From IMG/VR virus record IMGVR_UViG_3300023210_000067, positions 1 to 43,829 of that record: 43,829 bases of DNA, one strand, 5' to 3'. This document shows, in pieces, positions 1,841 to 18,391 of the stretch. This DNA comes from a virus. Position 1 is the first letter of the stretch. Every line of letters begins with the position of its first letter. The notes under the pieces are model-generated. The model was not told the origin of the DNA and did not search any database. It saw nothing but the letters and a program-made list of their open reading frames with translations. The translations under genes and the position numbers were made by a program.

Positions 1841-2287
1841 TCACTTTTTTAGTAAAACTTCTATTTTTTTAATTTTATCTGAGTAAGCGTAATAATACGA
1901 TTTAACCATATTAAGCTCATGTCTTTGTTTTTCAACTTCTTCAACCTTCTCATTGTAACCTTTATCAGTATATACCAACTCTAAAACTTGTTGGTTGTTT
2001 TGAGGATAAATAGCTGATAAGGAGTTGTTATTGTTAGGAAAAGATGCCTTTGTTAGTCTTTTTCCTCTACAATACTCATAGAAAGACTTCTCTAAGGACT
2101 TTTCTGCCTTAATTAGTTCATATTCTAACTCAGTTTTTAACGAACTTAGCTTATACAAAACAAGAGGAGCTATCAACCCCTCTTGTTTAATATTGTCAAA
2201 GTCTATCGTTAAATTACGCTCACTTAACTCAAACGATGTGTCCGAATTATCGAGTTCTAAAATAAGATTATTCCTTGATATTTTCAT
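1841..2287 (-). CDS. Hypothetical protein, 148 aa
   Basis: It starts with ATG at 2287, inside the 3' end of the polymerase gene (20-bp overlap in another frame), so the two are probably translationally coupled. The centre and C-terminus are helical and rich in Lys and Glu (ELEYELIKAEKSLEKSFYEY). The overlap suggests a replication-associated role, but no domain is recognised. Confidence 0.6.
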   Translation of the reverse strand: MKISRNNLILELDNSDTSFELSERNLTIDFDNIKQEGLIAPLVLYKLSSLKTELEYELIKAEKSLEKSFYEYCRGKRLTKASFPNNNNSLSAIYPQNNQQVLELVYTDKGYNEKVEEVEKQRHELNMVKSYYYAYSDKIKKIEVLLKK

Positions 2288-5200
2288 AAATAAATGTAAT
2301 TTTCGAGTTGTGATTCAAAGAAAGAGTTTTACACTGCTTGTATTTATCATCTTTAACAATTCCAGACAAGAACAAATAGCAACCTTTCTTAATTCTTTTA
2401 GTATCGTCTTTATTCTTTTTTAGGAATGAAGAAAAGCCAGTTACGTAGACAAGATCAGAATTAGATTCTAAAGTTATTGATAACATGTCTCCATAGGCGT
2501 TTTTCTTTAGCGTAGCGACCTTAATAGAACCAGCTAAGGTAATTTCATCACCCTCATCTAAACCTTGCAACTCAGACGATTTAAAATAGTCATCAATTGG
2601 CAGGCTGGCTTTGTCGATAAGTTTATCATAGTCAATATAAGTCCAACCAAGTATATCACTTTCGTAAGATTTGTACTCAATGAAAGAACAATTGATGTAT
2701 TTTCTATCTTTTTCCTTAGTAGCTCTATTTTCGTAGAATTTCATAAGAACTTTGGCTCTATCGAATACATCTTTAACAAACTCTACCTCATCAAATGCTC
2801 CAGATAAGATTAAATTCTCAACTTCGTTCTTTTTAGCCTTTGTTCTATTGTCAAAGTCAACGATAGATAAAAAGTTACCATTCTCATCTCTTTCTTTGAT
2901 AATTGACGAAGCTAAGGTTTTAACTTGCTTAATTTGAGACAATCCCCAATAAATATCATTACCAACAATGTCAAAAACTTCGGGAGCTAAGTTAATATCT
3001 GGTGTTTTTACTGAGATAATACCCTCTTCTTGAATTTCTTTGATAATACTTGCCATATCTCTAACAGCTTTTGCCTTCTTATACTCAGTAGCAAGTGCAA
3101 TAGAGTAAAATTCTGCTGGGAAGTGAGTTTTTAACCACATTGTATCATTACTAAGCCAAGCATAACTAAATGCGTGAGCTTTATTAAATGAATATGTCGA
3201 AAACTCTACAATTTTATCCCAAAGCTCATCAGCCATAGAGGTAGTGTAACCTTTCTTAGTAGACTCTTCTGTGAACATCACCTTAAATGTCTTCATTTTT
3301 TCCATGTCTTTTTTACCAATGGCTTTACGAACATCATCAGCTTGTGCGTCTGTAAAGTCAGCTAACACAACAAAAGCTTTCATAACTTGCTCTTGGTAGA
3401 CTAAAAACCCTAAAGTTTCTTCTTCTACGTCTTCTAATAATAAATCATATTCAGCTTCTCTAATTTCGTTTTTAACGTCTAAGTAGTGTTCGTGAATTTT
3501 TAAGTTCATTGTAGCTGGTCTTAGTAGCGAGGTAGCAATACTTAGGTCTGAAATAGAGGAAGGTTTTGCTCTTTTTACATATTGAGTAGCAACAGTAGAT
3601 GAAAATTGGAACACTTTACAAGTTTTACCCTCAGCAAAGTTATTAAATGACTCTTTACAATCAACTGGTATGTTTTTGTAATCAATGGTAGTGCTTTTTT
3701 TCTCTTGAATTAAGTCAATAATGTCATGAATGTCATCTAAAGTACCTAAGCTTAGTATATCATTCTTTAAAAGACCCATTTTTTCACAATTCTTACCATT
3801 GAACTCAGTAATTAATACTGGCTCTGGGAAATCTTGATACTTTATCTTCCTACAAGGGATATAATCGTGAATTTCGGTAGGATTTCCGTCAAAATCTTCC
3901 TCTGGAGTAATTAATACACCACAAGCATGAACTCCTTTTTGTATTAAAGCACCTTCAACCAACTCTACTTTACTACAAGCATCATAGTTTTTATTAAGAA
4001 AGGTAGTTAATCTTGGAGATGTATTTAACATCACATTCAGCATAGTATCACCATCATTATTACCTATCATCTTAGTATGGTACTTTATGATTTTATCTTG
4101 CTCTCCGTGAAGTTTCATAAGCCTTGTTAATGCTGTTTTGGCAGTTAATTCTCCAAAGTTACCTATCAAAGCTACATTTTTCTCGCCGTATCTACTCATA
4201 AGGAAGCCTTTAATCATGTTAACGTACCTTCTTTCAAAGTCACAATCTAAATCTGGCATGGATTTTGTTGCCCTACCCTTATTTAAGAACCTACTAAACG
4301 ATAACCCATGCTTAATAGGATCTACGTCTGTAATTCCCATCAAATATGTAACTAATGAACCAGCACCAGAACCACGACCTCTACCATAATAAGCTCCAAT
4401 ACTGTCAGCGTATTCATACTGGGATTTAGTAATAAGGAAATAAGACACGTAATTACTACTTGTAATAACTTCCATCTCAGTTTTTACCCTATCAGCGTAA
4501 ACCTTTTGGTCTAATCTTGGATTGTTTGCTATTTTACTCTTCCAACCTTCACCAATACAGTTTCTAAAAGCTTCATATTCTTCTTCTTTTGTTGGTAAAA
4601 ACTTAGGAATTTTAAATCCATCCGTTATAATAGGCTTGTCTGGTAAAGAATCTACTAAAACTTGAACATTTCTTACAGCTCTATCAAAAACTTTCTCAGT
4701 TTCATCATTTAAAGCGAACATTATCTCCTCTTTTGAAGTTTTGCAAGTCTTCATTTCCAAGTTTTCACTCCTTTTTGGATTCAAACCTGTTACAAGTTTA
4801 CCAAGCAATGTTCTGCTATTCTTGTAAAATCTATGAGTGTTGTAAGTGTCGTTAATCCAAATAGGTTCATAAGAAGAGTTTACATACTCTTTTAGTCTGT
4901 TAAGAAATTTGGAATAAATTGACGAAGATTGATACTCATTAGTTGAAAATTGATAGTAAACCTTGTTAAAGTGTGACTCTAAGTAGTTTAAAAGTTCTAC
5001 ATTAAATGGAACTTTGTCTGGATTTACAACAATTGTTACAGAGGTACTAAGTTTTTTTAATTGCTCTTTAGTAATACAGTTAGTTTTGTAGTTATCAACA
5101 AAGGCGATCTTGTTAAGTTTCAATAGTTCTTGATAAGTTCCGTAAAACTTTAAAGGAAATTTATCATTGTTACCAAAATCAACATCGCATTGCAACCCTA

Positions 5201-5672
5201 ATACAGGTTTAATACCAGCACCTAAGCAATGTTCTTGAAACTCTAAAACTCCACCCATGCAATTAGTATCACACACTCCTAAAGCAGTTATTCCTGTCTT
5301 TTTAGCAATATTAACTACACTTTTTAAGTTAATACTACTTTCCATCATTGAATACTTGCTTTTTATACCTAACAAAGGTGTTTTTGAAGGGTTTTTAAGC
5401 TTATTATCGAACAGCATTATCTTTAAGTCCTCAAACTTACCAGCTTCTTTGTTAAACATAGCATAGTAAGGAGTTTCTGCTGGTATGATAGCTACGGCTT
5501 CTGCACTACCATTAACAAAAAACATTTGAAGTTGTGCCTCAGAAAGGTTTATCTCTCCATTGACTAATACTTTGGAAGTTTCTGTTAAAAATAGCATCTT
5601 AATACCATTAACAATCCAAAGTGAGCCTTGTTTTTTGATTTCTAAATTGTTTTCTTGAAAGAAATTGCTCAT
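2268..5672 (-). CDS. dnaE: DNA polymerase III alpha subunit (DnaE-like, C-family), 1134 aa
   Basis: This is the phage replicative polymerase. Visible in order: an N-terminal extension of about 95 residues; a PHP-like domain (residues 99-165); the palm with GRGRGSGAGSL (430-440) and the catalytic pair in PDLDCD (D474, D476); the third carboxylate in KNDILSLGTL (D638); the fingers motif YQEQVMK and SFNKAHAFSYAW; a helix-hairpin-helix region (GLSQIKQVK); and a C-terminal OB-fold. Length is close to bacterial DnaE (about 1160). The PHP metal ligands are gone: the expected HxH before YS reads GIK (102-104) and the DHG/DHN position reads DTN (135-137), so the PHP domain is probably inactive. A host-like promoter lies just upstream. 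Confidence 0.95.
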   Translation of the reverse strand: MSNFFQENNLEIKKQGSLWIVNGIKMLFLTETSKVLVNGEINLSEAQLQMFFVNGSAEAVAIIPAETPYYAMFNKEAGKFEDLKIMLFDNKLKNPSKTPLLGIKSKYSMMESSINLKSVVNIAKKTGITALGVCDTNCMGGVLEFQEHCLGAGIKPVLGLQCDVDFGNNDKFPLKFYGTYQELLKLNKIAFVDNYKTNCITKEQLKKLSTSVTIVVNPDKVPFNVELLNYLESHFNKVYYQFSTNEYQSSSIYSKFLNRLKEYVNSSYEPIWINDTYNTHRFYKNSRTLLGKLVTGLNPKRSENLEMKTCKTSKEEIMFALNDETEKVFDRAVRNVQVLVDSLPDKPIITDGFKIPKFLPTKEEEYEAFRNCIGEGWKSKIANNPRLDQKVYADRVKTEMEVITSSNYVSYFLITKSQYEYADSIGAYYGRGRGSGAGSLVTYLMGITDVDPIKHGLSFSRFLNKGRATKSMPDLDCDFERRYVNMIKGFLMSRYGEKNVALIGNFGELTAKTALTRLMKLHGEQDKIIKYHTKMIGNNDGDTMLNVMLNTSPRLTTFLNKNYDACSKVELVEGALIQKGVHACGVLITPEEDFDGNPTEIHDYIPCRKIKYQDFPEPVLITEFNGKNCEKMGLLKNDILSLGTLDDIHDIIDLIQEKKSTTIDYKNIPVDCKESFNNFAEGKTCKVFQFSSTVATQYVKRAKPSSISDLSIATSLLRPATMNLKIHEHYLDVKNEIREAEYDLLLEDVEEETLGFLVYQEQVMKAFVVLADFTDAQADDVRKAIGKKDMEKMKTFKVMFTEESTKKGYTTSMADELWDKIVEFSTYSFNKAHAFSYAWLSNDTMWLKTHFPAEFYSIALATEYKKAKAVRDMASIIKEIQEEGIISVKTPDINLAPEVFDIVGNDIYWGLSQIKQVKTLASSIIKERDENGNFLSIVDFDNRTKAKKNEVENLILSGAFDEVEFVKDVFDRAKVLMKFYENRATKEKDRKYINCSFIEYKSYESDILGWTYIDYDKLIDKASLPIDDYFKSSELQGLDEGDEITLAGSIKVATLKKNAYGDMLSITLESNSDLVYVTGFSSFLKKNKDDTKRIKKGCYLFLSGIVKDDKYKQCKTLSLNHNSKITFIYENIKE

Positions 5673-5689
5673 ATATTAATTATTTTGTA

Positions 5690-5721
5690 CTAATATACGA
5701 GCAATTGTTTAAAAATCCAAA
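5690..5721 (-). promoter_or_regulatory. Host-like promoter TTTG-N20-TATATTAG for the polymerase gene
   Basis: TTTG (5721-5718) and TATATTAG (5697-5690) are separated by 20 bases on the minus strand, close to the Bacteroidota consensus TTTG and TAnnTTTG. The site spans the end of the primase gene and the gap before the polymerase ATG at 5672, so the polymerase can be transcribed apart from the primase and helicase. Confidence 0.55.
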
Positions 5722-6701
5722 GATATTGTATTAAAAAAAGTTTCAACCTCGTTAGAATCCCTAAGAGCAGTAGTTAACTCATCAGTGGTAACCTCTTCTG
5801 GATCTCCATTTTCTAAAGAAGCTACTTTAACTGAACTAAATAGGTTTTGTATCTTATTAGCAGTCTTAATAGAAGATTCCAAAGCATCACTGTCATATAA
5901 AATAATTACATTCTTAACATTTGTAAACTTCTTTAGTATATTTACTTGATAATCCTTGAAAGACTTGCCAAATGTAAACACACACTTTACATTTGTAAAC
6001 TTATATAGTTGTAACTTCCTATCAACAGCTACCTTATCAAATATTCCCTCAACAACTATAACAGTGTGAGTTTCTTCTAATATATCATCTAAACCACCTA
6101 ATATCTTACCAAAATCAACACCCCATGAGTTTTTAAACTTCTGAATAGGAGCTTTATATTTACTCTTATTATGCTCTTTTATAAACGTTGCATCTAATAC
6201 ACTTCTACCTATATAAGCGACAGGAACACTGTTCTGTTTTATAATCATATAGACGTAATCGTTGCTTTGAGTAACCTCATATTTCATCAACTCTTCATTA
6301 GTCCAACCTCTTTTAGTTAGAAATTCAATATTAGGGTTGAACTTGTAAGGAGAATTGCGATTTATAGGCGTTTTAATGAGTTCTAAGACATCTTCTTCTT
6401 CACTTAATGGTATTACATCAAAATCATGATTATAATCGTCTATGGTAGGTATTCTGTTAGGTAGTAAGTTTAATATTCCTAAGTGTTTAAAAACCTCATA
6501 AACACTACCAGAGTGATCTCCTCTTTTGCAGTCATAACTTCCAACGTATTTGCCGTTATCTGGATTAATATTTAATGCTTTTTTATAGTTTATATAAAAC
6601 TTATCATCCTTTCCACAGATAGGGCAACCACCTGTTACGTGATCACCTCTTGCAATCTTAGCATTTGGTAAGTGTTTTAATAATAAATCTAAGATTTTCA
6701 T
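5709..6701 (-). CDS. DNA primase (DnaG-type, zinc finger plus Toprim), 330 aa
   Basis: It makes RNA primers at the fork. A CHC2-type zinc-binding region is visible: CPIC (C26, C29), then C58 and H63 in YDCKRGDHSGS. A Toprim domain follows with the glutamate in VVEGIFD (E218) and the DxD in ILYDSDA (D270, D272). At 330 residues it is shorter than bacterial DnaG (about 600) and lacks a visible C-terminal helicase-binding domain, as is common for phage primases. Its ATG overlaps the helicase stop by four bases (6698-6701), indicating coupled translation. Confidence 0.9.
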   Translation of the reverse strand: MKILDLLLKHLPNAKIARGDHVTGGCPICGKDDKFYINYKKALNINPDNGKYVGSYDCKRGDHSGSVYEVFKHLGILNLLPNRIPTIDDYNHDFDVIPLSEEEDVLELIKTPINRNSPYKFNPNIEFLTKRGWTNEELMKYEVTQSNDYVYMIIKQNSVPVAYIGRSVLDATFIKEHNKSKYKAPIQKFKNSWGVDFGKILGGLDDILEETHTVIVVEGIFDKVAVDRKLQLYKFTNVKCVFTFGKSFKDYQVNILKKFTNVKNVIILYDSDALESSIKTANKIQNLFSSVKVASLENGDPEEVTTDELTTALRDSNEVETFFNTISLDF

Positions 6702-8071
6702 TGCTCTATGTATATTTTTGGTGATTTAGTAATCTCATCCCAATAATTATCACAAGTGTTTTTGTTGTCATAAAACTGAGAAGAGTTTCTGTTCTGAGCA
6801 ATGGTGAACAATATCTTATCCTTACCAGTTCGGTATTTATCTATAAATAACCTCGCTACTTCAAAAGGTCTCTCTTTGTTAGTTTCAACCTCTGAGAATG
6901 TTTGAGAAATGGTACAAAATAAGTTCATTTGTCTAATAAGAGCCTTATTGTCAGCAATATTATTACGAGTAAGAACAAATCCTACGTTATTCTTGTCTTC
7001 TGGCTTAATGTCATTACTTTGAGTAGCAGTTATCACAGGAACATCAAGCTCCATAGCAATATTTTTCATTTGTTTACCAACAGCACTTTTTTTGGCTCTA
7101 ACTCCTTCATTATTAGTAGAGTATGTTTTACCATCACCAACTTCAAACTCATCTAAGTAGTCAAAAATTAACAAATCAAACTTTCCATGCTTTTTCTCCA
7201 TTTTTTTAGCAATGTTATAGCAATCGTTCATACTACCACTACCAAACTCTTCAAAAGCGTGAACATATAGGTCTGAGATTAATGTCTTTTTAAACTCAGC
7301 GATTTTAGCGTCAATCTCTTTATTCTTTTTAGCATCAAAGGAATTAAACATGAAACTTGACGAGTTTACTCCAAGCAATGTTGACTTATATAGGTCTAAA
7401 CAAGCCTCTCTTGAATCCTCTGCTTGAAAATGTAGCACTTTTTTACCTTGTAATAACGCTTGTATGCCTATATATCTAAGCATTGTTGACTTACCGCCAC
7501 CAGAATCAGCCATAATGCACCAAAATTCCTTCCTTCTTATACCTCCGTAAGTATAGTAATCTAAAGGAGCTATACCCGTTGGCAAGGGTATTGATGTTCT
7601 TATTAACTTTCTCTCAGCTTCGGTCTCGTCCATAGATTCCATAAGCCCTTTAACCATTTCGCTACTAATAGATAAGCTTTCCTTATACTCAATGAAGTTA
7701 TTCATCTCTGTTTGAGCTTCCTCATGCTTGCCAGAACGGTACAATTCACCCATTTTGTTGTAGCTTTTTCTGAATTTCTTATCTAAAAGAAATGACTCAA
7801 AGGAGTTGGTAGCACTTTTAACGTGTACGTCCAACTTTTTAAGGTTGACTACTAACTCACAAGCATCTTTATCAGCTTTAACTGCCTCGTAGATACCTCC
7901 CCAAGTAGCTCCATCGCTTTTAAAATAAGAATGTCTTATTGCTTGAAATACGGACTGATGTTGTTTTGTTGGTAAGAATGATATATCTAAGTGGTCACTT
8001 GCTACGTTACAAAACTCTTTGTCAACAATCATACAAGCTAACACATCATCGCTTAATAATTTCTCTATCAT
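6698..8071 (-). CDS. Replicative DNA helicase (DnaB-type), 457 aa
   Basis: A RecA-fold hexameric helicase. The N-terminal domain (residues 1-130) resembles the DnaB N-domain that contacts primase. The ATPase core carries Walker A in ADSGGGKST (188-196), Walker B in LLIFDYLDE (300-308), the sensor-like VITATQSN, and the C-terminal DKYRTGKDKILFTIAQNR region typical of DnaB motif 4. Length matches the family. It sits between an unknown Cys-containing protein and primase, each overlapping by four bases, forming a compact primosome operon. Confidence 0.92.
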   Translation of the reverse strand: MIEKLLSDDVLACMIVDKEFCNVASDHLDISFLPTKQHQSVFQAIRHSYFKSDGATWGGIYEAVKADKDACELVVNLKKLDVHVKSATNSFESFLLDKKFRKSYNKMGELYRSGKHEEAQTEMNNFIEYKESLSISSEMVKGLMESMDETEAERKLIRTSIPLPTGIAPLDYYTYGGIRRKEFWCIMADSGGGKSTMLRYIGIQALLQGKKVLHFQAEDSREACLDLYKSTLLGVNSSSFMFNSFDAKKNKEIDAKIAEFKKTLISDLYVHAFEEFGSGSMNDCYNIAKKMEKKHGKFDLLIFDYLDEFEVGDGKTYSTNNEGVRAKKSAVGKQMKNIAMELDVPVITATQSNDIKPEDKNNVGFVLTRNNIADNKALIRQMNLFCTISQTFSEVETNKERPFEVARLFIDKYRTGKDKILFTIAQNRNSSQFYDNKNTCDNYWDEITKSPKIYIEQ

Positions 8072-8649
8072 ATTTTACTTCTATATAGGTGGATTAATTT
8101 TTTATATTCTTTTTGCTCGTCACGACACAACTGAGAAGCTTTGCACTCTTTACAAATGTCTGATAATGGATGAAACATTGTAGTCTTCTCAGCACAGTAT
8201 ATAACCCCTCTTAGAGTTCCTTTAAATGGGTTAATATCCTTGATAATTTCCTCAGAATCATGAATAACTAAGAAGTCGTCCTTTTTTATTACTTTCTTAG
8301 GGATAATTTTCTTTAGTATTTCATGCTTTTGAAGGTTTAGCTTTTTAAGCATAGTGTACACAATAGCATAATCGTAACCACTGTCACGTTTTTGAAACTT
8401 GTCAAATGTAGCCTCTGACAAGATCCAAGACAATTGGGTGTTTCTAACCTTCTCTTCTTGACCAAAATAGTTATTATAGCCAAAAAGCATGTAAGTTAAT
8501 ATGAAATTATCACCAAAACACACATTCTTATTCCTCAGCAACTTTAAAAACTTATCAATGTTGTCGTTTTTACTAACTTTGTATTTCTTCTCATATTGTT
8601 TTTCATACAAAGAGTTAAATACTAAAAGCACTTTCTCTTCGTTTTTCAT
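8068..8649 (-). CDS. Hypothetical protein, 193 aa, with C-terminal Cys motif (helicase-loader candidate)
   Basis: The protein is mainly helical and basic. Near the C-terminus it has HPLSDICKECKASQLC, a possible zinc- or iron-sulfur-binding site of one His and three Cys. It overlaps the helicase start by four bases and the preceding gene's stop by four bases. A gene in this position is often a helicase loader or replication accessory protein. I see no Walker motif, so a DnaC-type AAA+ loader is excluded. The function is inference from position. Confidence 0.55.
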   Translation of the reverse strand: MKNEEKVLLVFNSLYEKQYEKKYKVSKNDNIDKFLKLLRNKNVCFGDNFILTYMLFGYNNYFGQEEKVRNTQLSWILSEATFDKFQKRDSGYDYAIVYTMLKKLNLQKHEILKKIIPKKVIKKDDFLVIHDSEEIIKDINPFKGTLRGVIYCAEKTTMFHPLSDICKECKASQLCRDEQKEYKKLIHLYRSKI

Positions 8650-13446: not shown

Positions 13447-13665
13447 TCATAAACAAATCGTATTACATTGTTCGTTTTTATTTTCTAAGGCTTGAAAAGG
13501 GATAAAGTTGTCATTCTCGGCATCAAAAACTCCTAAAACAGGTATTTGCTCTATTGCTGGAAATTCAAGCCCTTCATCAGCAGATTTGATTACTTCAAAA
13601 TCCAAAGCATCTGGATTGAAGGTTGCTATATTATCTAAATAAGTTATTAATTCACTAAGTATCAT
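13447..13665 (-). CDS. Hypothetical protein, 72 aa
   Basis: A short acidic protein, last gene of the antirepressor operon, overlapping the upstream gene by 11 bases. Sequence such as FEVIKSADEGLEFPAIEQIP resembles small phage proteins of unknown role. The 142 bases that follow (13305-13446) hold only the promoter of the next operon and remnants of very short frames. Confidence 0.5.
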   Translation of the reverse strand: MILSELITYLDNIATFNPDALDFEVIKSADEGLEFPAIEQIPVLGVFDAENDNFIPFQALENKNEQCNTICL

Positions 13666-13891
13666 CTCTAATATATTTGTTTAAAATCTTAATAAGTTCC
13701 CTCTTTTCTGAGAATGACATAAAAATAGGCATCTTTGATATAATGTCAGATTCAAAATCACTACATTTTCGACACATATTAGCATATTCAAGCTCAGTTA
13801 TTCTAAAATCAGTCATTATTCCAGCATCAAAGACATTCATAATTTTACTTATGGATGTCTTGTAAGTGCCTTTTCTGCTTAGTCTTCCCAT
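13655..13891 (-). CDS. Hypothetical protein, 78 aa
   Basis: A small helical protein with a CRKC pair at residues 40-43 and a basic N-terminus (MGRLSRKGTYKTS). It overlaps both neighbours (13 and 11 bases), as expected for a translationally coupled operon member. Unknown function. Confidence 0.5.
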   Translation of the reverse strand: MGRLSRKGTYKTSISKIMNVFDAGIMTDFRITELEYANMCRKCSDFESDIISKMPIFMSFSEKRELIKILNKYIRDDT

Positions 13892-14208
13892 CCTTCTGAG
13901 ATTACTGACGGTTTGTATTTATTTCTAATCCAACCAACACCTTTGTCAGTTTCTACCTTTTCTTCTTTACCATTAACTCCAATAGTGTACTTTTTAAGTC
14001 TTGGAGACCTATTTAATTCTTTAAACTCTCTTATAGAGATTTCCCCAAGCATAGTGGCAGTGTGCATTCTGGTATAATAGTCTAAAAGTGACCATTCTAC
14101 GTTATTTAAGTCATTAATATCATCAAAAGCAACGCAATTATCAATAAACTCTAATATAGCTAACTCATTTAAGTTATCAGACTTCAATAGTTTTAATAAT
14201 TCTTTCAT
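13879..14208 (-). CDS. Hypothetical protein, 109 aa
   Basis: The N-terminal half is acidic and helical (LKSDNLNELAILEFIDNCV); the C-terminal half is basic with a Trp-containing end. It overlaps the MazG-like gene by four bases and the next gene by 13. No family recognised. Confidence 0.5.
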   Translation of the reverse strand: MKELLKLLKSDNLNELAILEFIDNCVAFDDINDLNNVEWSLLDYYTRMHTATMLGEISIREFKELNRSPRLKKYTIGVNGKEEKVETDKGVGWIRNKYKPSVISEGWED

Positions 14209-14543
14209 TTTTCTTCGGTGTAAATTTTATTAGATTCGTTTAATGGGTTTATGTCAGTAAGGACTTTGTTAGAGAATAACCCTTTTTCTCTTTGTTTAAT
14301 CTTCATTGAGCTTAAAATATTCGCCACTGGGAATCCGTTAGCCATACCAAATGAAATTGCTACGTGGATAAGATCTGCGAACTCAGTAATGTCATTAAAA
14401 TCAGAATTAACAATCTCTGCCAACTCTTCCTTTACCTTCATAACATACAACTGATTAAGTTCATCTTGATTGTCAATAGTATCAGTCTTGTAATTTGGCA
14501 ACTTATCAGCTACCTTATCTCTAATTAGTTTTTTTACCTTCAT
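14205..14543 (-). CDS. MazG/PRA-PH-like nucleoside triphosphate pyrophosphohydrolase, 112 aa
   Basis: The start KKLIRDKVADKLP and the helical layout match the small all-alpha NTP pyrophosphohydrolases related to HisE and MazG. The metal-binding pattern is visible: EELAE (E39/E40 and E43) and EFADLIH (E54, D57), followed by the basic KQREKGLF region near the end. Such enzymes hydrolyse NTPs, dNTPs or alarmone-like nucleotides to monophosphate and pyrophosphate. In phages they may adjust nucleotide pools or the stringent response. Four-base overlaps on both sides place it in the antirepressor operon. Confidence 0.8.
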   Translation of the reverse strand: MKVKKLIRDKVADKLPNYKTDTIDNQDELNQLYVMKVKEELAEIVNSDFNDITEFADLIHVAISFGMANGFPVANILSSMKIKQREKGLFSNKVLTDINPLNESNKIYTEEK

Positions 14544-14881
14544 TTTAATATGTTTTTATAGGTTTCTATATCATGTAACAACATCTCAATGTCGTTTGCT
14601 ACTAAGCTTGTTTGTTCTAACTTTTCAAGTTCTTCAACTCTTAATTCAGCTTCCTCTATCATTTTTACGACCTTACCTCTCAGAGTTGGCTTGCTACTTT
14701 CAATAAGTTTGTTGTTGATAATAGACTCATACTCATCTTCTTCTAAAAACCAACATTCTAAAAGGTCTTCTTTCCAAAATAACGCACCTGTACCATAAAT
14801 AACAATCTCTCCAATAGAAAAACCATGATCAGTGATATTTTTAACAACTCTTACTTTGTCTCCGTTTTTTAATTCACTCAT
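14540..14881 (-). CDS. Hypothetical protein, 113 aa (SH3-like N-terminus plus coiled coil)
   Basis: Residues 1-50 (LKNGDKVRVVKNITDHGFSI) look like a small SH3/KOW-type beta barrel. Residues 70-113 are a heptad-rich helix likely to form a coiled coil. The leader TATTAAAAACAAAGATAATT before its ATG shares a 19-20-base segment with the antirepressor leader. Unknown role; KOW-like folds often bind RNA or transcription complexes, but this is only an analogy. Confidence 0.5.
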   Translation of the reverse strand: MSELKNGDKVRVVKNITDHGFSIGEIVIYGTGALFWKEDLLECWFLEEDEYESIINNKLIESSKPTLRGKVVKMIEEAELRVEELEKLEQTSLVANDIEMLLHDIETYKNILK

Positions 14882-14891
14882 AATTATCTTT

Positions 14892-14910
14892 GTTTTTAAT
14901 ACATAAGCAA
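14892..14910 (-). repeat. Leader repeat TTGCTTATGTATTAAAAAC (copy 1)
   Basis: The minus-strand sequence here is nearly identical to 16080-16061 (one extra A there). Both sit just upstream of an ATG (14881 and 16050). Probably a shared 5' leader or translation-enhancing element within the early operon. Confidence 0.55.
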
Positions 14911-14926
14911 TTTAATAAGAATAATT

Positions 14927-15319
14927 CTAATATCCTAACTCTTTTAGGTAATTTAACAAAACAAACCTAGAAGAATATCTTAACTTGTTGAAAATCATAG
15001 GACAATCAACTGAATCAGTGTAAATTTCCTCAATAAAACCAAAATAATCATCTGACTCTATGTGTTCTTTTCCTATTCTATAAAGTCCTCCCCAAGATTT
15101 TAAGTTATAAGGCAATCTATTGCAGTATTCATATCCTTTTAAGTCACTAAATGCGAAAGATATAGGCTCAACAAAGCATTTATTAGCCATTTTATACCTT
15201 TTGATATCTATTTCCTCAACAAAGACATCATGATGCTTGTTAATCATAATTCCGTCACTACTGTAACTGCCTATAAAACTTTCATCTCCTACTGATACAA
15301 ATAATAAATCTAATTTCAT
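14927..15319 (-). CDS. Hypothetical protein, 130 aa
   Basis: A mixed alpha/beta protein with several aromatic residues (for example NLKSWGGLYRIG). No motif recognised. It overlaps the antirepressor stop by four bases, so it is co-translated with it. About 45 bases separate it from the next gene, where the shared leader element lies. Confidence 0.5.
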   Translation of the reverse strand: MKLDLLFVSVGDESFIGSYSSDGIMINKHHDVFVEEIDIKRYKMANKCFVEPISFAFSDLKGYEYCNRLPYNLKSWGGLYRIGKEHIESDDYFGFIEEIYTDSVDCPMIFNKLRYSSRFVLLNYLKELGY

Positions 15320-16050
15320 TTCGTTAGTTTTCTTAGTTTTTCTAATAATTTAATCTGACCTTGACCAGTAATTAATGTCTTGATAGAGATTTTCTCCCCA
15401 TAAGCAGTTTTAAAAGTCTGCTCTATTGTCTTAAACGTACCATTGTCTACGTATTTCTGATAAGGTTGGTTGCTTTTCATAAGAATGTTATTCTTTCTAA
15501 GTAAAGCAAACATCTTGTTTCTACCTAAGCTAAGTTCATCATTGACTAATTTGGCAAATGTAGCAATATCTATCAAATCAGATGAAGAAGCTACCTTGTC
15601 AGCAAAATCAACTTTAGGAGCGTTCAATTTAATAAGCTCATCTTTCTTCTTATTATCTCTAATAGTATTTGCTGTCAAGGATAACAAATTAGCATCTGTG
15701 TTAGGAAATAATGCTAATAATTGTTGCTCCTCAGTTTGGATTGACTTCAACCTCTTTAACTCAGCAAGAACAGCTTTTCTTACAGTTTTACTCTCAGAAA
15801 CTAATAATTCAAGTGATTGATCGTAAGTTAATTCATAACACTTTGATTCTCTGTTACTTTTGTCTAAATAAGAGGTGAGCTGAATTTTTAGCTCACCTAT
15901 TTCTACCTCAAATTCCAGCTCAATCTTAGCTAACAAGTTTTTATGAGCTAAAATACTTCTACCTTCTTCTTTTCTGAAAACATTGATTTGTTCTGTTAAA
16001 TAAACGCTTGAAAATTTTTCTTCGTTTCTTTCTACTTTTGTCAGTTCCAT
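15316..16050 (-). CDS. Phage antirepressor, Rha-like N-terminus with KilAC-type C-terminus, 244 aa
   Basis: The N-terminal region (residues 15-100: VYLTEQINVFRKEEGR, then YELTYDQSLELLVSESKTVRKA) follows the pattern of Rha/phage regulatory domains. The C-terminal part (residues about 155-244: ATFAKLVNDELSLGRNKMF, then QPYQKYVDNGTF) matches the KilAC antirepressor domain, including the usual 'N..p.q.y...g.F' core. Such proteins switch lytic or early gene programmes. It heads the early operon from a CTTG-type promoter at 16078-16108. Confidence 0.8.
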   Translation of the reverse strand: MELTKVERNEEKFSSVYLTEQINVFRKEEGRSILAHKNLLAKIELEFEVEIGELKIQLTSYLDKSNRESKCYELTYDQSLELLVSESKTVRKAVLAELKRLKSIQTEEQQLLALFPNTDANLLSLTANTIRDNKKKDELIKLNAPKVDFADKVASSSDLIDIATFAKLVNDELSLGRNKMFALLRKNNILMKSNQPYQKYVDNGTFKTIEQTFKTAYGEKISIKTLITGQGQIKLLEKLRKLTK

Positions 16051-16060
16051 AATCTTATTT

Positions 16061-16080
16061 GTTTTTTAATACATAAGCAA
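16061..16080 (-). repeat. Leader repeat TTGCTTATGTATTAAAAAAC (copy 2)
   Basis: Near-identical to the leader before the gene at 14881. It begins within the TATCTTG element of the early-type promoter and ends 11 bases before the antirepressor ATG. Confidence 0.55.
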
Positions 16081-16108
16081 GATATGAAACTTATTCCTTT
16101 TTCCCAAG
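16078..16108 (-). promoter_or_regulatory. Early-type promoter CTTG-N20-TATCTTG for the antirepressor operon
   Basis: CTTG (16108-16105), 20 bases, then TATCTTG (16084-16078), the same spacing as the two left-edge copies, with an unrelated spacer. The ATG at 16050 is 28 bases further on. The site lies inside the 3' part of the small membrane-protein frame at 16091-16237. Confidence 0.5.
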
Positions 16109-16237
16109 TATTCTGTACAAAATCTCAAAGAGACCTCCCCAAGAAACCATAACAACTAAGAATCCTACAAAGCCAAAACCTAAACACTTTGTCCGAATAC
16201 TGCTACTAATATTAACAAGGTAGTAACCAAACTTCAT
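16091..16237 (-). CDS. Small single-span membrane protein, 48 aa (tentative)
   Basis: The frame is open from 16285, but that ATG lies in repeat R2. I chose ATG at 16237 because a CCC-class promoter ends four bases upstream. The product has one hydrophobic segment (FGFVGFLVVMVSWGG) and a basic tail (ILGKKE). A small late membrane protein could be a holin, which is otherwise missing from the lysis cassette. Neither the coding status nor the role is proven. Confidence 0.35.
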   Translation of the reverse strand: MKFGYYLVNISSSIRTKCLGFGFVGFLVVMVSWGGLFEILYRILGKKE

Positions 16238-16240
16238 ATA

Positions 16241-16271
16241 TAAATATACACAATGCAGATATAAAATAGGG
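16241..16271 (-). promoter_or_regulatory. Late-type promoter CCC-N20-TATATTTA
   Basis: CCC (16271-16269), a 20-base spacer, then TATATTTA (16248-16241). It differs from the other copies only in the last base of the -7 element and in a less T-rich spacer. It faces the small membrane-protein frame and the antirepressor operon. Confidence 0.45.
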
Positions 16272-16274
16272 ACA

Positions 16275-16350
16275 CCCCCTTCCATCCCCCTTTATAGTAG
16301 TGGGTTTTTTACGTCAATCCTTGTTTTAGTAGTTTAAAGGCACTTTTTAT
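16275..16350. repeat. 76-bp duplicated intergenic element, copy R2
   Basis: It matches 1440-1515 with three mismatches in the same orientation. It lies in the divergent region between the antirepressor (minus) and phoH (plus). The differences all fall in the half nearest phoH (CCTTGTTTTAGTAGTT); the G-rich half is unchanged. Confidence 0.75.
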
Positions 16351-16358
16351 AACGCACT

Positions 16359-16389
16359 CTTTTTATATAAAATAATTTTCGTATCTTTA
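16359..16389 (+). promoter_or_regulatory. Promoter for phoH (CTTT-N19-TATCTTTA)
   Basis: TATCTTTA (16382-16389) is one base from the Bacteroidota -7 element TAnnTTTG, with CTTT 19 bases upstream (16359-16362) in an AT-rich spacer. The phoH ATG is 34 bases downstream. This is the only plus-strand promoter I can support in the window. Confidence 0.5.
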
Positions 16390-16422
16390 TAAAAAATATG
16401 TTCAACTTAAATATAAAAAGTC

Positions 16423-17058
16423 ATGGCGACTAAAACAGGAGTAAAGTTTTTGATTCAATTAACAGAAGAGCAGAAACAAGCAAAAGCTCAAATTCTTAAC
16501 CATTCTTTTAACTTTGTAATGGGTGAAGCTGGTACTGGTAAGAGTGCTTTAGCTTTTCAAATAGCACTAAATTTAATATTCGAGAAAGAGGTGTCTAAAA
16601 TAGTGTTTATTCGTCCAGCAGAGGCGGTTGAAGAGTACGGGTTCTTAAAAGGTAGCTTAGATGAGAAGGTTGCTCCCTACTTTGAGTATTTACTTGGTCT
16701 TAGTAAAAAGATTTACGGGGGGACTAAGGATGTTGAAGATATGTTTAAGAAAGGAACTATCGAATTTAGACCTTTAGGCTTTGTTAGAGGTGACACTTTT
16801 GATGATTGTATTGTTTTGGTAGAAGAATTTCAAAACCTTAACGACCACCAATTCCAGATGTTGATAGAGAGGTTAGGAAAAAGAGCAAAATACATATTTA
16901 CAGGTAGTGAAACTCAGATAGATTTAAAATACAAGCAAGACTCATGTGTTCATTCATTGCATAAAATTATTGACGATGATGCTGTGTTTAAATGTGAGTT
17001 AACAGTTAATCACAGAAACAAGGATATACAAAGACTTTTACATTCGCTTAGAGGTTGA
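16423..17058 (+). CDS. phoH: PhoH-like ATPase, 211 aa
   Basis: Walker A is GEAGTGKS (34-41). The PhoH signature follows: IVFIRPAEAVEEYGFLKGSL, then EKVAPYFEYLL. Walker B is DCIVLVEEFQN (EE in place of the usual DE), and the late motif is FTGSETQIDL. PhoH proteins are common in phages and have been linked to RNA metabolism, but their phage role is unsettled. It is the only plus-strand gene, divergent from the antirepressor operon and next to the origin candidate, and has no close downstream gene. Confidence 0.92.
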   Translation: MATKTGVKFLIQLTEEQKQAKAQILNHSFNFVMGEAGTGKSALAFQIALNLIFEKEVSKIVFIRPAEAVEEYGFLKGSLDEKVAPYFEYLLGLSKKIYGGTKDVEDMFKKGTIEFRPLGFVRGDTFDDCIVLVEEFQNLNDHQFQMLIERLGKRAKYIFTGSETQIDLKYKQDSCVHSLHKIIDDDAVFKCELTVNHRNKDIQRLLHSLRG

Positions 17059-17064
17059 TTTTAG

Positions 17065-17134
17065 CCTCGTGGTGGAACTTTAATAGTTTTTGAATACTAA
17101 GAGTCATTTAACGAAATACAAGACCGTCACGAGG
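17065..17134 (+). other. Long-range RNA hairpin after phoH
   Basis: CCTCGTGGTGG (17065-17075) pairs with CCGTCACGAGG (17124-17134) as 11 base pairs, two of them G-U, enclosing 48 bases that contain a smaller TAGT/ACTA hairpin. It starts six bases after the phoH stop. It is not followed by a clean T-tract, so a simple terminator is unlikely. The outer seven pairs recall a tRNA acceptor stem, but no T-loop or anticodon arm is visible. A 3'-end stabiliser or small RNA is possible. Confidence 0.4.
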
Positions 17135-17217
17135 GTATTTTAAAAGTAGTCAATTTAGATAATAATATATTATATATTCTTTTAATTAAATAAAATACTT
17201 ATTACTATTATTAGCAC

Positions 17218-17451
17218 TGTGGATAAGTGGATAACTTAGCTAAGTTGTTGATACTTAGTGAGTTAAATACTAAATTAAGTGTTGATAAAATGTGGATAGG
17301 TTGTTGATAAGTTGTGAGTTGTCAACATAGTTTGTGTTGCTAACTTTATTAGTGTTAATAACTCGTAACTTATACACAGTAAATGTGGATAGATTTGATT
17401 ATTATTAACAATTTTATGTGGATAACTTTTTATTGGATAATATTTGGATAA
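17218..17451. other. Candidate replication origin: cluster of DnaA-box-like sites
   Basis: Compared with TTATNCACA and its reverse complement, there are three perfect sites (17218-17226, 17370-17378, 17417-17425) and seven with one mismatch (17226-17234, 17280-17288, 17291-17299, 17302-17310, 17353-17361, 17384-17392, 17443-17451). Nine are in one orientation and one is inverted. A 14-bp palindrome AACTTAGCTAAGTT lies at 17233-17246. A very AT-rich stretch at 17155-17212 could serve as the unwinding element. The whole 17059-17524 gap has no convincing gene; a minus frame at 17275-17547 has repetitive, low-complexity coding and I reject it. Confidence 0.6.
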
Positions 17452-17490
17452 GTTATAGACGCTTGCTAAGTTAGTTGGTATAAAAAAAGA

Positions 17491-17522
17491 AAAAAGGCTT
17501 AGGTTAATTCCTAAGCCTTTTG
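17491..17522. terminator. Bidirectional terminator between the origin region and the patatin gene
   Basis: GGCTTAGG (17496-17503) pairs perfectly with CCTAAGCC (17510-17517) around the loop TTAATT, flanked by A-tract and T-tract on opposite sides, so it can work for both strands. It begins two bases past the patatin stop and would end the late tail transcript; from the other side it would stop phoH read-through. Confidence 0.85.
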
Positions 17523-17524
17523 TT

Positions 17525-18391
17525 TTACACCTTCTTTTTAGCCTCAATTAGTGCTAACTCGTCAAGTTTCTTCAACCTTTCTGAGTCAACATCATATAAG
17601 CTTGTTAATACTGATGGAATAAATATCTGAGTTAGTTCAACTCCTCTTAATTCGGCTATTAATTTTTGCTTTTCTTCATCTTTTTTAGAGATTTCAACAC
17701 TCATTATGTCAATCGTTCTCATTAGAGACTTTATCAAATTACCTCTGTCGTATTCCTCTATAATGTAGTCTTCTGGTCTGGAAAATATACAATAAGCATC
17801 CGTTATTTTTTCACTTTCCATGATCTTAGCTCCTATGCTGTGATTTCTTACTCCTCCATCGTATAAAATCTTACCACTTATTTCAATTGGCTCAACAAAT
17901 ACTGGTATAGAAGCACTAGAAATTATTAAATTAACAAAAACAGAGTACCTTTTTACTGTTTTTAAATTAGTTATAATCTTCTTTCCAGTCTTAAAATCAA
18001 CAGAGCATACAAAAACAGGCGGGTATTTTTTAGACAGAATGTAGCTTTCGTAGTCATCGTAGGTTATTATTTTAACAAACAACTCTTTCAAGTTGTCCAT
18101 TTTTCCCAGATAATCATTTCCACAAGCTATGTTTTTTAATGCTCCGAAGGTTAATTTACCCTTTTCATTAACTGGCTTAGTAGAAAAGAACGTATCTAAG
18201 TTAAAATCACTCAAAGCTTCATCTAATTCTTTGAATTTACCCATAGCAATAGGGACTCCAAGCAAAGCTGTCCCACTTACTCCACTTATTACATCTGGCT
18301 TTATACCTCTTTCTTGTATTAAATACTTAAAAATAGTATAAACTGCTCTTATTTTAGTAGAAGACCCACTACCATCTAATAGTATTTTCAT
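17525..18391 (-). CDS. Patatin-like phospholipase, 288 aa
   Basis: A predicted acyl hydrolase with a Ser-Asp dyad. The oxyanion-hole glycines are in LLDGSGSST (residues 4-12), the nucleophile elbow is SGVSGTAL (S39), and the catalytic Asp is in LYDGGVRNHS (D178). The elbow reads G-V-S-G-T rather than the usual GxSxG, a small deviation. Length fits compact bacterial patatins. There is no signal peptide, so it would act in the cytoplasm or be carried in the virion. It is the last gene of the tail-fibre operon, four bases after the fibre gene, and its stop is next to the terminator. Lysis aid, inner-membrane attack or entry are possible roles. Confidence 0.85.
   Translation of the reverse strand: MKILLDGSGSSTKIRAVYTIFKYLIQERGIKPDVISGVSGTALLGVPIAMGKFKELDEALSDFNLDTFFSTKPVNEKGKLTFGALKNIACGNDYLGKMDNLKELFVKIITYDDYESYILSKKYPPVFVCSVDFKTGKKIITNLKTVKRYSVFVNLIISSASIPVFVEPIEISGKILYDGGVRNHSIGAKIMESEKITDAYCIFSRPEDYIIEEYDRGNLIKSLMRTIDIMSVEISKKDEEKQKLIAELRGVELTQIFIPSVLTSLYDVDSERLKKLDELALIEAKKKV

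Follow-up and report, generated by a model that had tools for sequence, protein, structure and literature searches.

Does a tailed phage that carries its own helicase, primase and polymerase leave the opening of its DNA to the DnaA protein of its host? The question is raised by a cluster of DnaA-box-like sites in an intergenic region of an uncultivated virus record. The window, by which we mean the whole stretch of DNA analysed, is this 43.8-kb record with a G+C content of 32%.

Genome context of the candidate origin

The tailed-phage genes of the window lie nearly all on the minus strand and include those for major head protein, head protease, tail sheath, baseplate wedge and amidase, in addition to the replication genes listed in Table 1. 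Gene order is shared with Chryseobacterium phage MA9V-3 (103 kb), Bacteroides phage DAC16 (178 kb) and IMG/VR contigs, at protein identities of about 25-40%. Based on these relatives, the host presumably belongs to the Bacteroidota. Neither portal nor terminase was identified among the window proteins scanned and the record is, therefore, very probably a piece of a larger phage genome; the closest named relative has 103 kb. No Rfam families or tRNAs were found in the window. A 193-aa protein (8068-8649) which adjoins the helicase has no assigned function; it is kept in the relatives with four invariant cysteines and is possibly part of the replisome. Its AlphaFold model, in which a hidden initiator or loader was sought, was too poor to use (mean pLDDT 57).

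The candidate origin lies entirely within a 466-bp gap (17059-17524) between the convergent genes phoH (plus strand, ending at 17058) and a patatin-like gene (minus strand, ending at 17525). The first-pass annotation had described the region as gene-free and located at a strand switch. It is gene-free in that the only ORF of at least 60 aa entering the gap (17275-17547, TTG start, overlapping the end of the patatin-like gene) looks spurious, and the strand switch is more precisely a convergent junction without divergent promoters. The terminator-like hairpin of the patatin-like gene would shield the candidate origin against leftward transcription. The RNA hairpin 3' of phoH was not significant (z -1.1) and a promoter scan, with 9 sites versus 6.7 in shuffles, was uninformative. 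Since a convergent junction has no need for promoters, a role as promoter or transcriptional operator is unlikely at this site, where convergent genes and a terminator meet.

Neither dnaA, dnaN nor another chromosomal indicator gene was found beside the candidate origin, the flanking genes being phoH and the patatin-like gene. That neighbourhood is a feature of location and lies outside the mechanism, so membership in the class of chromosomal oriC is not claimed. GC skew, which had been proposed as a check, showed no inversion at the site and is uninformative because all but one of the major genes point the same way.

Table 1. Positions of the candidate origin, its elements and surrounding genes in the window, and of comparable sites in other viral contigs
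Feature	Position	Strand	Basis
DnaE-type polymerase III alpha subunit, phage	2268..5672	-	Domain searches; comparison with relatives
DnaG-type primase, phage	5709..6701	-	Domain searches; comparison with relatives
DnaB-like replicative helicase, phage; kept in relatives	6698..8071	-	Domain searches; comparison with relatives
KilAC antirepressor, part of lineage-specific block	15316..16050	-	PF03374
phoH-like ATPase gene; sole major plus-strand gene; reads toward candidate origin	16423..17058	+	PF02562, 8e-44
Intergenic region with entire candidate origin	17059..17524		ORF list, domain searches
AT-rich DNA-unwinding-element (DUE) candidate, overlapping trios	17153..17212		Nearest-neighbour energy
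DnaA-trio array, five in-phase trios TAA TAA TAG TAA TAA (5'-3'), 3'-GAT-5' type	17199..17213	-	Sequence scan
4-nt spacer GTGC, box to trios	17214..17217	-	Sequence scan
Perfect DnaA box TTATCCACA, beside trios	17218..17226	-	Box scan
Tandem partner box TTATCCACT, one base in common with preceding box	17226..17234	-	Box scan
14-bp perfect palindrome AACTTAGCTAAGTT	17233..17246		Read directly from sequence
Three boxes TTATCAACA, CTATCCACA, TTATCAACA, exact 11-bp spacing	17280..17310	-	Box scan
Box TTATTAACA	17353..17361	-	Box scan
Perfect box TTATACACA, opposite orientation	17370..17378	+	Box scan
Box CTATCCACA	17384..17392	-	Box scan
Box TTATTAACA, opposite orientation	17402..17410	+	Box scan
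Perfect box TTATCCACA	17417..17425	-	Box scan
Box TTATCCAAA	17443..17451	-	Box scan
Intrinsic-terminator-like hairpin of patatin-like gene	17492..17521	-	Hairpin scan
Patatin-like phospholipase gene; reads toward candidate origin	17525..18391	-	PF01734
Dense perfect TTATCCACA arrays with trios, other viral contigs	L041:7700-8165; L042:8191-8656; L044:9978-10443; L045:752-1210; L043 ~2515-2630		

The DnaA-box cluster

Based on the DnaA box TTATNCACA and allowing one mismatch, 11 sites were identified in 17218-17451. Three are perfect (17218-, 17370+ and 17417-) and eight carry one mismatch; nine lie on the minus strand and two on the plus strand. The first-pass annotation had correctly reported the three perfect copies, the extent of 234 bp, nine sites in the same orientation and a 14-bp palindrome, while its seven one-mismatch copies and total of ten were each one short. 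Local first-order Markov simulation of 17155-17451 gave 0.96 ± 0.98 sites with a maximum of 5 (n=1000), and the largest cluster in 20 simulations of the whole window had 5 boxes versus the 11 seen here. The total for the window (67 versus 72 ± 8 in shuffles) was not raised; only the clustering of the boxes is elevated. The regular spacing of the three boxes at 17280-17310 would be compatible with DnaA molecules on one face of the helix.

The core module: tandem boxes, spacer, trios and predicted melting element

The basal unwinding system (BUS), found in Bacillus subtilis incC and in 85% of 2070 species surveyed (PMC8287927, PMC6669920), is defined by a DnaA box, often doubled in tandem, from which a spacer no longer than 16 bp leads to three or more trios of the 3'-GAT-5' type (PMC8287927). 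The GC-rich gap has a published mean of 4 bp (PMC8287927) and the orientation of the box is essential in B. subtilis (PMC6669920). For the box, at most two mismatches and a tandem partner no more than 3 bp away were required.

All of these elements were found at one end of the cluster, where the earlier annotation had overlooked both the tandem box pair (17218-17234) and the trios (17199-17213). The minus strand reads 5'-3' AACTTAGCTAAGTTATCCACTTATCCACA GTGC TAATAATAGTAATAAG TATTTTATTTAATTAAAAGAATATATAATATATTATTATC. The cluster ends on this strand with TTATCCACT/TTATCCACA, two boxes with a one-base overlap, followed by the 4-bp spacer GTGC, by TAATAATAGTAATAA with five trios on the correct strand, and by AT-rich DNA. 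The window has a single perfect box with five TAR trios; 400 whole-window Markov simulations produced no such combination, and a box with four trios was absent from 3000 simulations of local composition. The 60-bp AT-rich stretch noted before (17153-17212) proved to be the least stable 60-bp duplex of the 43.8 kb, with a nearest-neighbour energy of -53.7 versus a mean of -72.3 (sd 3.9), and it adjoins the trios. The order box-box-spacer-trios-DUE, the orientation and the spacer length of 4 nt are in line with those described for the BUS (PMC8287927, PMC6669920).

An oriC-like design served by host DnaA, as suggested in the first-pass annotation, is the best-supported reading, the box pair, spacer, trios and DUE corresponding to those of a BUS (PMC8287927). 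We consider it probable, from these sequence elements, that 17153-17451 is a host-DnaA-dependent origin of chromosomal type in a tailed phage of MA9V-3/DAC16 relationship. The low proportion of perfect boxes (3 of 11) speaks against it. Host DnaA would bind the tandem boxes at 17218-17234, aided by the distal array extending to 17451; in B. subtilis such an array is thought to act via a loop, in either orientation (PMC8287927, PMC6669920). A DnaA filament would then grow along the five trios of the minus strand from 17213 to 17199 and, judging by the identity with tested BUS modules, would pull apart the weak duplex at 17153-17198. The phage DnaB-like helicase, primase and Pol III alpha, all present in the contig, would subsequently load and copy the genome. 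We infer each of these events, namely DnaA binding, melting, use as the phage origin and the choice of the helicase loaded, from the DNA.

The window encodes no DnaA domain, and none of the window proteins scanned was recognisable as an initiator. The earlier statement that the phage has no visible initiator thus holds for the window and not for the whole phage, the record being incomplete; a phage initiator may be encoded elsewhere, beyond the contig.

A dense intergenic array of boxes without a promoter role could also act as a sponge which titrates host DnaA and blocks initiation of the host chromosome in the manner of datA, with no role as an origin. Such a sponge would be weak at a single copy and 11 sites, most with a mismatch. 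It also needs no in-phase trios, no 4-bp spacer and no DUE, and all three are present. Titration, previously offered as the alternative, is weakened by these elements and is rather improbable.

The same module in bacteria and plasmids

When 11.3 million genome contigs were scanned for TTATCCACTTATCCACA followed by three trios within 12 nt, 30 bacterial loci from several phyla were identified, among them Bacilli, Acholeplasmatales, Bacteroidota, Ignavibacteriales and Parcubacteria. The DnaA signature RDH(S/T)(T/S) was found within approximately 120-280 bp in 12 of the 30, and most spacers measure 4 nt or close to that (e.g. GCCC, TGCT, GTGCC). A slightly wider tandem box and trio pattern had no match in 2.9 million viral contigs, a set which may omit the record of the window itself and those very near to it. 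The core in the window, therefore, looks like a bacterial oriC, and its strict form is unique among the viral contigs searched. One bacterial region, at approximately 5538 of a Chitinophagales MAG contig (L109), has 18 DnaA boxes, 13 of them perfect, within 300 bp of the tandem core; it is origin-like and unusually dense.

Matches to the tandem box core are also present in non-coding DNA of Pantoea, Erwinia and Vibrio plasmids. A Vibrio crassostreae plasmid (NZ_AP025478.1:237294-237328) matches the 37-nt box and trio core over 35 nt at 89%, which suggests BUS-like plasmid origins.

The TTATCCACTTATCCACA tandem itself occurs outside coding sequence in Pantoea and Vibrio plasmids, which would also fit a plasmid-type origin, at which DnaA boxes and the AT-rich stretch assist a phage initiator of the Rep or O type bound to iterons, as in P1 and RK2. 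DnaA boxes and a DUE occur together in iteron plasmids, P1 having two DnaA-box arrays (PMC4980987), and the incomplete contig leaves room for such an initiator. However, no iteron family was found in 17040-17540, where the repeats are the DnaA-box motif or two-copy chance matches, and no Rep-like gene among the main window proteins domain-searched, with the small genes covered in part and the contig incomplete. An iteron-based origin is, on balance, unlikely.

Similar sites in other phages

A looser search of viral contigs (a perfect box, up to 14 nt, then more than four trios) gave six contigs, five of them with dense boxes. L041, L042, L044 and L045 have 10-11 boxes each, 7-9 of which are perfect, and L043 has four boxes, three perfect. 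The sixth, L046, has a single box and was dismissed as a chance match. L173 came from a second search and has nine boxes, of which five are perfect. The L044 and L043 contigs encode portal, terminase and major head proteins and L173 a terminase, which identifies these contigs as phages. As L043 and L044 have portal and head families in common, three lineages are represented: that of the window, a podovirus-like group with L041 and L043, and L173.

Reversing the box as a control yielded nine stretches in viral contigs, compared with six for the real pattern. The adjacency of box and trios by itself was consequently rejected as evidence and box density was used. Within 350 bp, all nine controls had no boxes, versus 4 to 13 for the window and five true matches. 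Among L041, L042, L044 and L045, invariant columns make up 84% of the boxes, 100% of the trios and 25% elsewhere, which points to selection on exactly the boxes and trios. This pattern of conservation is the best comparative support that such putative origins work in phages.

L173 (IMGVR_UViG_3300020057_000121) carries a gene (1313-1705) for a 130-aa protein which is essentially a stand-alone DnaA domain IV (Bac_DnaA_C, 2e-14). It is located between recA and the oriC-like BUS (1751-1778, nine boxes), and the contig also has a GroEL-like gene alongside the terminase. In Lactococcus phage AM1 (L059:2150-2912) an intergenic region has four perfect TTATCCACA boxes at 20-21-bp spacing and adjoining long AT-rich repeats, without trios; similar matches were seen in Lactococcus phages AM2-AM12 and WRP3.

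We lean slightly toward the view that full chromosome-type origins were acquired by, or evolved in, several unrelated tailed phages, which leave strand opening alone to host DnaA and use their own helicase, primase and polymerase. With the DnaA-domain-IV gene beside the candidate origin of L173, such phages may compete for, or re-route, the initiation switch of the host.

Conservation in relatives

Single-protein scans with PhoH, capsid and DnaE gave distant relatives or none, while a baseplate alignment gave 12 related IMG/VR loci at approximately 40% identity. A perfect box with three trios was found in none of these 12 records. Stretches from nine related records, MA9V-3 and part of DAC16 had at most four boxes per 300 bp, and the fecal-phage record MT835500 had five per 300 bp without trios. 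BLAST searches of phages with the intergenic region and with the 37-nt core returned chance-level matches only.

The replication and tail genes on both sides are syntenic with the relatives. The genes from the small ones at 13.4 kb through KilAC, phoH and the patatin-like gene have no counterpart in any of the ten relatives tested, and the candidate origin is therefore part of a lineage-specific block. This block (13447-18391; small genes, KilAC antirepressor, phoH, candidate origin and patatin-like gene) is inserted in an otherwise syntenic backbone. The best phage match of the patatin-like gene, at 40% identity, is in a 462-kb uncultured phage.

Conservation, on which the first-pass annotation had staked its reading, was thus not borne out at the family level, which is as far as the comparison reached (approximately 40% identity; no near relative was found): these relatives have neither the cluster nor the surrounding block. 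Either the phage of the window gained the candidate origin, or it was lost from the relatives or replaced in them by a different one; relatives at approximately 40% identity must start replication otherwise or elsewhere.

A block without counterpart in ten relatives, together with only three perfect boxes among 11, might indicate a plasmid or host origin brought in as a passenger with the phoH/patatin/KilAC cassette and now decayed or unused. Decay would be expected to erode the core, yet the tandem boxes, spacer, five trios and DUE are intact, and a passenger origin is very unlikely.

Significance and comparison with known systems

Phages with a replisome of their own are commonly held to bring their own initiator or to start by transcription or recombination. 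If the host-DnaA origin is real, the presence of a complete BUS of host type in such phages would show that the minimal DnaA opening module is portable between replicons and would tie phage replication to host DnaA activity. Sites of this kind could also provide small BUS variants of natural origin with which to assay opening in vitro by DnaA from Bacteroidota, a phylum that the six species tested in PMC8287927 do not include.

DnaA boxes in origins of phages and plasmid-prophages are already known (P1, PMC4980987; by prediction, PMC11512268), and no account of DnaA-trios or a BUS in a phage was found in the literature searched, which was covered in part. According to the accessible part of its description, the lytic phage vB_PseuGesM_254 resembles the window in having an Ori-Finder-predicted origin with DnaA boxes and an AT-rich region, and that part makes no mention of DnaA-trios (PMC11512268).

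DnaA boxes in phage DNA are likewise described for the injection stop signal of T5 (PMC13250531), and the cluster could by analogy be a landmark for DNA entry or packaging. The T5 signal is repeat-rich and serves two-step DNA entry, and its description contains no BUS architecture of the bacterial kind. At the site in the window no long repeats or terminal-repeat boundary were seen, and it lies between tail and replication genes; an entry or packaging function is most improbable.

The host-DnaA origin favoured here shares with that of lambda (PMC5043065) a compact phage theta type with an AT-rich opening region. Lambda, in contrast, relies on O and P proteins of its own in place of DnaA, and no O-type iterons or gene were seen in the window. 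Like the origins of P1 and other iteron plasmids (PMC4980987), the candidate combines host DnaA boxes and a DUE on an extrachromosomal replicon, whereas those origins need Rep and iterons, neither of which was seen in the window, and the feature of the candidate is its trios. From a bacterial oriC this putative origin differs in its location in a phage beside phoH and a patatin-like gene rather than dnaA/dnaN, and in the phage provenance of the nearby helicase, primase and polymerase genes. It resembles a bacterial oriC with a BUS in its tandem boxes in the required orientation, a spacer of approximately 4 bp, at least three trios, an AT-rich DUE and a distal array.
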